From a virus: 26,458 bases of DNA. The position numbers and the translations under genes were made by a program. Position 1 is the first letter of the stretch, and each line of letters starts with the position of its first letter. The stretch covers positions 1 to 26,458 of IMG/VR virus record IMGVR_UViG_3300009428_002469; one strand, given 5' to 3'. Below the pieces are notes generated by a model that was not told where the DNA came from, made no database searches, and saw only the letters and a program-made list of their open reading frames with translations. Positions 1 to 11,640 of this stretch are shown piece after piece.

Positions 1-336
1 AACATTTCCGTTTTCAAGTGTATCTGTAAGCACGATGCTAAGAGATGATAGAGCTATTAAGTCATTGCTTTCTGCACCGTCCCAGCTGATTACATCGTTA
101 GCGATGCTAAATTCTCTAGCTACTCCGTCTACTATCCATTGGTCATTGCATACTGTTACACTAGGCCAAGCTTCTGGTTCACTTATAGCTGTTGGTTCTA
201 CTAATGTGATAGTGTTGTTATTCCACTGACCTTGAATTAATTCTGTTTGAGTTAATACTACTGGTTCGATTACTTCTTTTTTACAAGATACTAAACCTAA
301 TACTGCTACTGCTGCTGTTAAAATAATTGCTTTCAT
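1..336 (-). CDS. Putative phage-encoded lipoprotein (partial, C-terminus beyond window)
   Basis: The ATG is at 336 on the minus strand and the frame stays open for 112 codons to the window edge, so the C-terminus is missing. The N-terminus is a lipoprotein signal: Met-Lys, a hydrophobic stretch of about 14 residues, then a lipobox LVSC with the modifiable Cys at residue 18, followed by KKE. After cleavage the protein would be anchored by lipid in a membrane and face the periplasm or the cell surface. The mature part begins with a polar linker and a segment (LIQGQWNNNTITL) that loosely resembles the first strand of lipocalin-like domains common in Bacteroidota; this is only a weak resemblance. 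Phage lipoproteins often act in superinfection exclusion, which is inference here. It lies downstream of a tRNA-like gene on the same strand. The lipoprotein call is firm; the function is unknown. Confidence 0.75.
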   Translation of the reverse strand, partial: MKAIILTAAVAVLGLVSCKKEVIEPVVLTQTELIQGQWNNNTITLVEPTAISEPEAWPSVTVCNDQWIVDGVAREFSIANDVISWDGAESNDLIALSSLSIVLTDTLENGNV

Positions 337-392: not shown

Positions 393-459
393 TTCCGCCA
401 TCAGGAATCGAACCTGATACTTCGTATTGCTACGCACTCTACCAATGAGCTATGACGGG
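393..459 (-). tRNA. tRNA-like RNA lacking a normal anticodon loop (67 nt)
   Basis: On the minus strand this segment folds as a tRNA with one striking exception. The acceptor stem is CCCGTCA/TGGCGGA, seven positions with a C-A mismatch at the first pair and one G-U. Positions 8-9 are TA. The D arm is GCTC, loop ATTGGTA, GAGT. The variable loop is AAGTA. The T arm is TCAGG, loop TTCGATT, CCTGA, and the discriminator is A. CCA is not encoded. The anticodon arm (423-434) is only 12 nt instead of 17: a 4-bp stem CGTA/TACG closed by GCAA, a GNRA-type tetraloop. No 7-nt loop with U33 can be formed, so it probably cannot decode. It may be a decoy, a non-decoding tRNA mimic or a decaying tRNA gene. 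The tRNA-like fold is well supported; function is unknown. Confidence 0.65.
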
Positions 460-499
460 TGGATCGTATATATTTCACTCTGATCCGTAACGCTATACA

Positions 500-549
500 C
501 GCAGGACACTACAATTAAGTAAGTATACTACGATCCAAGCGATCCTGCG
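500..549. repeat. Inverted repeat (7-bp stem) between radical SAM gene and tRNA-like gene
   Basis: CGCAGGA (500-506) is perfectly complementary to TCCTGCG (543-549) across a 36-nt loop. It lies in the 143-bp gap downstream of the radical SAM gene and upstream of the tRNA-like gene, both on the minus strand. It could be a processing or termination structure for the leftward transcript. There is no clear U-run, so a classical terminator is not supported. Confidence 0.35.
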
Positions 550-602
550 CGGTCCTCATGTATTGCTACTAAGGCGACTGTCCAGAATATTATATAATAC
601 AA

Positions 603-1478
603 CTAGAATATATATCTAATAGTATTCCATGCAATTGTATCTTTGTGTACTTTTTTCCATTCCTTTATAAATACAGGCTTGTGCTTGTACGAGTAACGGA
701 TATTTTTACCACCATACTGTGATACTTTTTTCTCTTGATTCTCAGGAGTCCAAAGTAAGTCTTCACCTGTTAAGTTATCTTCTAAATTTCTCACGTGTTT
801 ATCTTCGTTGTGAGTAAGGAATATAACTTCGGCTTTAACTTGAGATTTATACTCATCTTTTACATGTGTATCTAATTGATCGAATAGCTCTTCGTAATCT
901 GCCAACCATCCGTTATAGTGGACTACTGGACTGAAGTTTACGTGCACATCATAACCAGCGTCTATAAAGCTATTGATAGCTTTTATGCGATCTAGTATGA
1001 GTGGGGTATTAGGCTCTAATTCTGTAGATATACTTTGTGGCATTAAGCTAAATCTAATCCTTACTTTTTTATTAGGATTAAATGCTAGGAATTGCTTAGG
1101 TATAACTTTAGTAGCGAATGAGGCCATAGCTATCGGGTGCTCTTTAAAGAACGTAAATATTTCTTCCCACTTATGAAATTTAGCATGAAGAGCGAAGTCT
1201 TCGTTACAGCTGATATCATACGTAGTGTATTCTGCATGCGTTTGATTGGGTTTCTCTACATTTGTAAAGAATGCATGATTATTTACTTCTGATAGAATTT
1301 GTGCGTAGTTTTGTGCTACATTTAATCCTTTGGGTAAGTGCCGTTTCATGTAGCAATAGCTACAATTTAGTAAGCACCCATATCCGAAAGAAGGCGTTAT
1401 GAAGTCTGTACTTCTACCGCTCTCCCGAATCAGCATTGATTTCCTTGTTACTTTGTTTACTTTACTTTGTGATGACAT
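603..1478 (-). CDS. Radical SAM protein, spore photoproduct lyase (SPL)-like family
   Basis: A 291-residue protein when started at the first ATG (1478). A longer frame to 1541 begins with TTG and would overlap a small upstream ORF, so it is rejected. The radical SAM cluster motif CX3CX2C is present as GCLLNCSYCYM (Cys35, Cys39, Cys42), which binds the [4Fe-4S] cluster that cleaves S-adenosylmethionine. Further SPL-type signatures are DISCNEDF near residues 88-95, RFSLMPQ, a segment NFSPVVHYNGW, and a C-terminus ending RYIF. Cys91 sits at about the spacing expected for the hydrogen-donor Cys141 of Bacillus SPL. The founding enzyme directly reverses the thymine dimer spore photoproduct; the substrate of phage and Bacteroidota members is not known. 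A DNA-repair role is a reasonable inference. It belongs to the leftward accessory arm. Confidence 0.8.
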   Translation of the reverse strand: MSSQSKVNKVTRKSMLIRESGRSTDFITPSFGYGCLLNCSYCYMKRHLPKGLNVAQNYAQILSEVNNHAFFTNVEKPNQTHAEYTTYDISCNEDFALHAKFHKWEEIFTFFKEHPIAMASFATKVIPKQFLAFNPNKKVRIRFSLMPQSISTELEPNTPLILDRIKAINSFIDAGYDVHVNFSPVVHYNGWLADYEELFDQLDTHVKDEYKSQVKAEVIFLTHNEDKHVRNLEDNLTGEDLLWTPENQEKKVSQYGGKNIRYSYKHKPVFIKEWKKVHKDTIAWNTIRYIF

Positions 1479-1509
1479 TTTAATTGGGTTTAACTTGTTT
1501 ACAAGTTTG

Positions 1510-1590
1510 TTACTTATTTTTAGGCATTGTTGCAAGTGCAATAAGGAATAATATAAGTGATATTCCGAAACCTATTAACATTCTTTCCAT
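1510..1590 (-). CDS. Tiny hydrophobic peptide, 26 aa, single membrane helix
   Basis: ATG at 1590, TAA at 1510-1512. The peptide starts MERMLIGFGISLIL, continues with a hydrophobic run to about residue 21 and ends in a basic tail PKNK, giving one predicted transmembrane helix. It lies directly upstream of the radical SAM gene with a 31-base gap to that gene's ATG, so the two could be co-transcribed. Similar short hydrophobic ORFs recur on the same strand nearby. It is too short for homology, and its coding status is inferred from the hydrophobic pattern and the repeated arrangement. Confidence 0.4.
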   Translation of the reverse strand: MERMLIGFGISLILFLIALATMPKNK

Positions 1591-2047: not shown

Positions 2048-2101
2048 TTATATATATCCACCTATCACTAGGATTACTACTGTTATTAAAAACAATATCA
2101 T
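2048..2101 (-). CDS. Tiny hydrophobic peptide, 17 aa
   Basis: ATG at 2101, TAA at 2048-2050. The peptide is MILFLITVVILVIGGYI, almost wholly hydrophobic and long enough for one short membrane helix. It lies 15 bases downstream of the stop of another tiny hydrophobic ORF and 24 bases upstream of the 109-aa gene, all on the minus strand. Three consecutive short ORFs with tight spacing argue for real coding, but a random hydrophobic frame in AT-rich DNA cannot be excluded. Confidence 0.33.
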   Translation of the reverse strand: MILFLITVVILVIGGYI

Positions 2102-2116
2102 ATATATTTAATTTAG

Positions 2117-10095: not shown

Positions 10096-11640
10096 ATGAT
10101 CGGATCAGGAACAACAGAAAATGTAACAGGTTCAGCGGTTCGCAAAGGATTAATTGAAGGTAGTGCAGAGATCGCGGAAGCGGTCTCTACTACTTTTGGA
10201 CCTTACGGGCGCAACGTAGCTATTACAATGAAATACAATGTACCACGTATTACTAAAGATGGGGCTACTGTAGCAGGCTATATGGCTTCTACTGACCCTA
10301 TACGTAACGTAGCTATACAAATTATTAATCAAGCTGCAAATGAGACAGCTATATTAGCAGGTGACGGTACTACAAGTACAACTATCCTTTCTAATGAGTT
10401 AGTTAAACAGTGCTTTGAAATGATATCGCAAGGTTACCAACCTATGCAACTAAAGAGAGATTTATTAGATTTACAAGATGTATTACTACGTCACCTTGAA
10501 GTAGAGAGTGCGGAGTTAGGAGTAGATCAAATTAAATCAATTGCAATGGTAGCTTGTAATGGTAATGAGGAGTTAGCTAATTTAGTTACAGAAGCTTTTC
10601 AGGTAATAGGTGAAGATGGATCTGTTACAGTAGTACCTTCTCAAAGTCAGTACACAACTTTAGAGGCTACAGAGGGAATTAGACTTGAGCGTAGTAACAT
10701 ACTTACAAATGTAAGTGGAGAAGCTGCAAGAGTTAAGCACGAGAACTGTAAAGTTCTAGTAACAGATTTAGATATTACAACTTTAGCTCAGGCGCAGGTT
10801 GTTGTAAATATACAGGCTGAGTTAGGCTCACCGCTTTTGATTATTTGTAATGATTTAGTAGGGGAAGCTGCAGAAGCAATTACATTTCACGTAAGAGAGC
10901 ATAAGTCTCCTATTTCAATTATCAGAGGTCCCGGTGTAGCTGTAGCTCGTAGGGAGTCCCTAAAAGACCTGGCTATAGTTACAGGTGCTAAGTTTATCTC
11001 TAAAGATGCAGGGTATGACATGGAAGATGTTAAATCTAAATTTGTAGGTAAAGCTGATATTGTTGAGATTACTGCAAATGAAACTAATATTGTAGGCCGC
11101 CACGGTGATCCTAAGTTAATTGAAGATAGAATTAACTATTACAACGAATTAATTGATCAAGATAAGCAAGGGAATACTACTAATTACAAATTACGCCGGG
11201 CTTATTTTACTTCAGGTGCCGCTGTTCTATATGTAGGAGGTACTAGTGAATCTGAAATTGATGAGAAAAAGGATTCGCTTGATGATACTATCCGGGCAGT
11301 ACGAAGTGCACTAGCAGATGGATATGTAACAGGTGGGGGTTTAACTTACGCCAGACTAATGCCTAAAAGGTTATTAGCTTCTATACCTAAGAAAAAATGG
11401 TATAAAAAACACAAGTTAACAAGTGTAGAGGTTATGCAAAATAGTTTAACTAGTTTAATGACCCTTATCCTTTCTAACTCAGGGATTACAACTGCAGAAA
11501 TGCACGAAGAATCCGTAATTACAAACAAAATAATTGACCCTACATTAGTAATCAAGTCAACTATCAGTAATGCAATAGGTGCAGCAATACTTATTAGCAC
11601 TACGGATTGTGTAGTAGTCAGAGAAGAATTACACCATTAA
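10096..11640 (+). CDS. GroEL-family (group I) phage chaperonin
   Basis: 514 residues. The nucleotide site is conserved: TFGPYGRN (33-40), ITKDGATVA (52-60, Asp55), AGDGTT (88-93, Asp90), Asp397 in the DDTIRAVRSALADG region, VTGGGLTY (411-418) and IDPT (480-483, Asp481), matching E. coli Asp52, Asp87, Asp398, GGG and Asp495. The apical domain keeps GSPLLIICNDLVGEA and a GPGVAVARRESLKDLAIVTG segment equivalent to the APGFGDRRK region. Differences are Tyr for Lys in GPKGRN, a shortened equatorial segment before IDPT, a divergent substrate-binding strand near residues 195-210, and no Gly-Gly-Met tail. It should form an ATP-driven folding ring. It sits between head genes, so the capsid or tail proteins are likely clients. 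Confidence 0.92.
   Translation: MIGSGTTENVTGSAVRKGLIEGSAEIAEAVSTTFGPYGRNVAITMKYNVPRITKDGATVAGYMASTDPIRNVAIQIINQAANETAILAGDGTTSTTILSNELVKQCFEMISQGYQPMQLKRDLLDLQDVLLRHLEVESAELGVDQIKSIAMVACNGNEELANLVTEAFQVIGEDGSVTVVPSQSQYTTLEATEGIRLERSNILTNVSGEAARVKHENCKVLVTDLDITTLAQAQVVVNIQAELGSPLLIICNDLVGEAAEAITFHVREHKSPISIIRGPGVAVARRESLKDLAIVTGAKFISKDAGYDMEDVKSKFVGKADIVEITANETNIVGRHGDPKLIEDRINYYNELIDQDKQGNTTNYKLRRAYFTSGAAVLYVGGTSESEIDEKKDSLDDTIRAVRSALADGYVTGGGLTYARLMPKRLLASIPKKKWYKKHKLTSVEVMQNSLTSLMTLILSNSGITTAEMHEESVITNKIIDPTLVIKSTISNAIGAAILISTTDCVVVREELHH

Follow-up and report, generated by a model that had tools for sequence, protein, structure and literature searches.

Codon supply and escape from tRNA-cutting defences are the usual explanations for phage tRNAs. 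A short locus near one end of the window (the whole stretch of DNA analysed here, a 26.5-kb linear virus record covering part of the genome of a marine crAss-like phage) raises the question of what a phage might do with a tRNA body in which the anticodon limb is cut down to a 4-bp GCAA hairpin, such that the RNA is unable to read codons. As tRNA bodies without an anticodon cannot supply codons, they would separate the codon-supply from the defence-escape idea or suggest a third use, such as RNA processing or enzyme titration.

Sequence and fold of the tRNA-like RNA

The original prediction placed a tRNA-like RNA at 393-459, and these coordinates proved right, with the RNA lying on the minus strand and reading from 459 to 393 as CCCGUCA-UA-GCUCAUUGGUAGAGU-G-(CGUA GCAA UACG)-AAGUA-UCAGGUUCGAUUCCUGA-UGGCGGA-A (Table 1). 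The 12-nt anticodon arm described there, CGTA/TACG closed by GCAA, is exact in the sequence and is also present in the MFE fold, a cloverleaf with a GCAA-capped 4-bp mini-arm at -19.2 kcal/mol (z -1.87, with 6/200 shuffles equal or better). The covariance-model scan proposed at that time returned the Rfam tRNA model (RF00005) with 41.8 bits where the gathering score is 29, the match running end to end over model positions 1-71. Its E-value is 7.4e-6 when the window is compared with the whole of Rfam and 9.2e-8 for a 331-base stretch, on which tRNA was the sole family matched. The D arm, the 5-nt variable loop and the T arm are canonical as claimed, and since U8, A14, G18-G19, G26/A44 and T54-U55-C56-G57-A58 are all kept the elbow is intact. 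The acceptor stem likewise pairs at six of seven positions, the single mismatch being C1xA72 next to A73, which we take to be the mismatch of bacterial initiator tRNA; the 11-24 pair is C-G and the RNA is otherwise unlike an initiator. Further deviations from the canonical pattern are a swapped U-A at Levitt position 15-48, a G-U wobble at 10-25 and the lack of an encoded CCA.

Compared with canonical bacterial and phage tRNAs (RF00005) the element shares the acceptor, D, variable and T parts and the elbow residues, and differs in the arm itself, where the 17 nt, 7-nt loop and readable anticodon of a decoding tRNA are replaced by 12 nt with a GNRA tetraloop. ARAGORN called no tRNA at this place in the window, because the element has no anticodon arm that the program accepts. 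A tmRNA identity was rejected, with neither ARAGORN nor Rfam yielding a tmRNA in the window.

Table 1. Features at and around the tRNA-like locus, in window coordinates
Feature	Position	Strand	Basis
Non-decoding tRNA-like RNA of 67 nt with its 5' end at 459	393..459	-	Rfam tRNA score, cloverleaf MFE, no ARAGORN call
Acceptor stem, 5' strand CCCGUCA, C1 opposite A72	453..459	-	6/7 pairs (sequence)
D arm GCUC-AUUGGUA-GAGU with G18 G19	436..450	-	sequence and Rfam
Mini anticodon arm CGUA-GCAA-UACG, 4 bp and GNRA tetraloop, 12 nt replacing 17	423..434	-	sequence and fold
T arm UCAGG-UUCGAUU-CCUGA	401..417	-	sequence and Rfam
Acceptor stem, 3' strand UGGCGGA, with discriminator A73 and no encoded CCA	393..400	-	sequence
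Strong hairpin (CGCGCAGGA ... UCCUGCGUG) in noncoding leader just upstream of tRNA-like RNA	498..555	-	-22.3 kcal/mol, z -3.64, 0/200 shuffles as good
Spore photoproduct lyase-like radical SAM protein gene (spl-like), upstream, same strand	603..1541	-	Pfam PF20903, 85.2 bits
Small lipoprotein-like protein gene (MKAIILTAAVAVLGLVSCKKE...), downstream, same strand, continuing past window edge	1..336	-	translation; signal and lipobox by eye

Genome context and related phages

In its large terminase the window shows 49.5% identity to Cellulophaga phage phi14:2 (Crassvirales, Steigviridae), and with the window MCP as query 45 loci were found in viral contigs, several of them on contigs of 85-95 kb. 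The operon arrangement on the minus strand is spl-like gene, noncoding leader, tRNA-like gene and lipoprotein-like gene. The 143-nt leader that holds the strong hairpin is unexceptional in structure overall (z -1.1 to -1.4). A second hairpin, GUA-GCAA-UAC, lies in the leader near 557-575 and repeats 10 nt of the mini-arm, GUAGCAAUAC.

Related phages were searched in 29 records, phi14:2 among them and most of the others related through MCP or GroEL, using both the tRNA model and a D-to-T-arm pattern permitting short as well as long arms. By these two screens 0/29 related records had a short-armed tRNA-like element, such that the search for the same shortened arm in relatives, proposed with the original prediction, leaves the window copy without a close homologue. 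Nothing similar was found at the corresponding place in the 29 records; a normal 17-nt arm in relatives had been named as evidence against the prediction, and as neither a normal nor a short tRNA lies there, the comparison speaks neither for nor against it. The tRNAs present in some of these records are ordinary and partly in clusters.

Searches beyond the relatives gave no near homologues of the region among phage records, 0 matches to the exact arm pattern in viral contigs and, for the tRNA body alone against phage records, no more than a resemblance to tRNA-Phe genes that falls short of significance (E about 2). Two loci found via the 5' half (L306 and L307) have the acceptor 5' strand and the T-arm 3' side in common with the window element; both are from Bacillota-type phages and their arms differ from that of the window. 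Homology is not claimed for them, the same T-arm/acceptor 3' side being present in ordinary tRNAs (called by ARAGORN as Thr in L309-L311 and as Arg in L308 and L312), and the resemblance may reflect merely a tRNA-Thr-like body.

The window encodes a GroEL-like chaperonin (10096-11640), as does phi14:2. In phi14:2 (NC_021806.1) a phage-encoded tmRNA was seen at L160:4031-4500, unannotated in the record, with the tag GSSVQKLAMVA* and 46.0 bits with Rfam tmRNA (cut-off 47). About 8 kb separate it from the phage GroEL gene, upstream of which it lies if the record is read across its origin, roughly the place that the tRNA-like gene has in the window.

Short-armed elements in other phages and in cells

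With the D and T arms fixed and the spacing set 5 nt short, exact-spacing matches were found at 16 loci in 2.9 million viral contigs and at 6 in about 85,000 cellular genomes. A wider pattern, allowing a gap of 14-24 nt against the usual 25-29, gave at least 120 matches in viral contigs, these viral figures being counts and not per-tRNA rates as 1.39 Mb of viral loci not chosen for tRNAs had neither short nor normal matches. The wider pattern gave 0 matches in 398 Bacillota genomes, the 399th, the centre genome, having been chosen for having one, while normal-length matches in the same Bacillota genomes numbered 149, spread over 26 genomes. The occurrence of similar non-decoding "tRNAs" in many other phages suggests that phages use the tRNA shape outside translation.

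About half of the short-arm elements are solitary, with no further tRNA within 1.5 kb (54/98). Only 26/98 overlap an ARAGORN call, mostly tRNA-???, the rest, including that of the window, being uncalled, and since standard tRNA callers miss most of these elements the class would go unnoticed in genome annotation. Unclear decoding is also a trait of the tRNA-like phage genes that carry the annotation tRNA-OTHER or tRNA-???, ScoobyDoobyDoo gene 159 being an example, although gene 159 is annotated Sup(cta) whereas most short-arm elements are uncalled altogether. No description of anticodon-less phage tRNAs was found in the open-access literature, and the window element is apparently one instance of a recurrent and apparently undescribed phage feature. 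An integrase or attachment-site origin was rejected, as a crude motif search placed an integrase within 3 kb of a single element out of about 100.

Whether the mini-arms are under selection bears on how this recurrence is read. The wider set was picked by D- and T-arm consensus, a choice favouring young relics too, and although the acceptor is fully paired in most short-arm elements, the D and T arms were set by the search itself and paired acceptors alone are therefore no proof of selection. Among 60 elements with at least 6 acceptor pairs, a mini-arm stem of at least 4 bp was found in 41, compared with a mean of 22.1 in 500 shuffles (sd 3.5, maximum 33); this excess is not decisive since small within-loop deletions leave stems too. 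In one phage family (L187/L240/L223/L232/L251) the mini-stem is CCNC/GNGG with pair 3 as A-U, G-C or U-A, a compensatory change seen in n = 5 sequences. The flanks are conserved in this family, a phrog_2152 gene lies downstream of the element in the three members checked of the five, and no chromosomal homologues were found in 399 Bacillota genomes. The architecture of the window arm, 4 bp and GCAA, is also found in L202 and in Acidovorax (L177/L181), with the arm of L181 being ACCC-GCAA-GGGU and that of Comamonas L179 CCUC-GCAU-GAGG; GNRA accounts for 4/22 tetraloops among the mini-arms. The Acidovorax and Comamonas elements (L177, L179, L181) are chromosomal, have a stem that is altered yet paired in both genera, and lie just 3' of what looks like the T arm and CCA end of a second tRNA.

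For the window arm itself, a single contiguous loss of 5 nt from a canonical arm is insufficient and at least one more change is needed, because the 3' side GCAAUACG puts a C at position 37, which is almost always a purine in tRNA, or breaks pair 31-39. Reasoned from the sequence in this way, the arm would not be explained by one contiguous deletion, and decay with substitutions would be possible.

Proposed role and rival explanations

We read the element as a functional non-decoding tRNA-like RNA of the crAss-like phage, with the acceptor/T limb and elbow kept and likely processed by RNase P and RNase Z, and put this close to an even chance (a probability of about 0.48), the expression, processing and function of the window RNA being what we infer. 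Transcription would most likely take place within the minus-strand operon, followed by host RNase P cutting before 459 and RNase Z after 393. Both cleavages would be expected since these enzymes recognise a substrate by its elbow and acceptor, without reading the anticodon, and the cuts would release a stable 67-nt RNA and part the upstream message from the downstream message. The released RNA could possibly be active in trans, for instance by competing for a tRNase or a tRNA-binding enzyme of the host. As the window element retains exactly the elbow and acceptor, processing of the spl/lipoprotein transcript would be the most economical model.

The nearest parallel is with mascRNA and menRNA (MALAT1, MEN-beta), which have a compact anticodon-arm loop, do not become aminoacylated and are recognised by RNase P and RNase Z through the elbow (PMC11693755). 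The anatomy relevant to such processing is present in the window, with an intact elbow, an acceptor paired at 6/7 positions and same-strand genes on either side, in keeping with the reduced loop, the position within a longer transcript and the elbow kept for RNase P/RNase Z in the eukaryotic RNAs. In the latter the D arm is reduced and the anticodon-arm stem longer, while the window element has a full D arm and a 4-bp stem, and common ancestry is not claimed. A tRNA-like RNA with a role outside translation is also known from Bacillus cereus, where the pseudo-tRNA tRNA-Other has regulatory effects (PMC3399842), but it is chromosomal with a Trp anticodon whereas the window element is from a phage and has none.

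The main rival is decay of a lone tRNA gene, in which the anticodon arm of an ordinary phage tRNA would have been shortened by about 5 nt and the gene fallen into disuse with the rest not yet decayed, an appreciable possibility although clearly short of probable. In keeping with decay, the copy is a lone one with ordinary tRNAs in its relatives as a possible source, a deletion within the 7-nt loop gives a shorter hairpin without any selection, and certain short-armed elements elsewhere have no stem in the arm at all. The lack of a homologue in 29 relatives, C1xA72 and U15-A48 as perhaps early decay, and a fold modestly above shuffles (z -1.87) could all argue against selection on the window copy. 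Decay by one contiguous 5-nt deletion is however inadequate for the arm, the same arm is found elsewhere (L202 and Acidovorax), one family keeps its mini-stem through compensatory change, and short-armed genes are very rare in cellular genomes despite the abundant tRNA genes there. The original prediction of a clean arm replacement in a non-decoding tRNA mimic is thus upheld in part: at the level of sequence the mimic is supported, with a perfect 4-bp GNRA hairpin, the same design in unrelated phages and Acidovorax and a compensatory stem in one phage family, while clean replacement still has to contend with decay. An artefact of assembly or sequencing, with a normal tRNA misassembled in a metagenome contig, would suit a locus known from a single contig, the near-identical contig L088 not extending to it; it is very unlikely given an arm that is a perfect hairpin, an intact remainder and the same design in independent contigs and isolate genomes.

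A different function, the decoy raised in the original prediction, would be that of a competitive inhibitor, in which the RNA binds host tRNA-acting enzymes (anticodon nucleases or other defence factors that bind tRNA) but is itself no substrate of theirs. The body and elbow are intact with no anticodon to cut, such elements are commoner in phages than in cells on the counts given above, and phage tRNAs are known to counter tRNA-cleaving defences (PMC10264068, PMC11555353). The anticodon loop that many anticodon nucleases read is missing here, and nothing with a link to defence was seen in the window, such that this speculative reading is rather unlikely. Competitive inhibition of an anticodon nuclease has been suggested for the tRNA-like domain of the bacterial Y RNA YrlA, a module thought to mimic tRNA toward protein partners (PMC7790460), and that domain is also what would favour a YrlA-like RNA with Ro60/Rsr as its partner. 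A Y RNA identity is the least probable of the readings and barely plausible. The element is not classed as a Y RNA because no Ro60 gene was found, the TROVE/Ro60 gene (PF05731) being present in 0/18 records covering the window (a fragment), relatives and the other short-arm phages tested; the flanks are unpaired, hence there is no Ro-binding stem extending the acceptor stem, and Rfam returns the tRNA family only.

If the non-decoding reading is extended beyond this phage, many kinds of phage may carry an undescribed class of anticodon-less tRNA gene, with a 3- to 5-bp mini-arm or none, selected for work outside translation, for example in processing transcripts or titrating host tRNA enzymes, of which class the crAss-like phage has one. 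We put this forward tentatively, as somewhat less than an even bet.

Other forms were seen among the short-armed elements. In viral contigs L191, L221, L239, L247, L213 and L225 the acceptor, D and T arms are fully paired and the spacer is 14-16 nt, leaving no anticodon arm. L236 (IMGVR_UViG_2529292852_000001) has two tRNA-like elements without an anticodon arm, that at 2063-2106 (minus strand) being immediately followed by a gene with a match to phrog_506 (transposase). In the archaeon Halapricum hydrolyticum a shortened-arm tRNA-like gene (L182:2501-2567) lies in an rRNA operon, in the spacer between 16S and 23S, and tmRNA-like genes lie near a short-armed tRNA-like gene in two viral contigs (L173:7268-7631 and L162:2306-2384).
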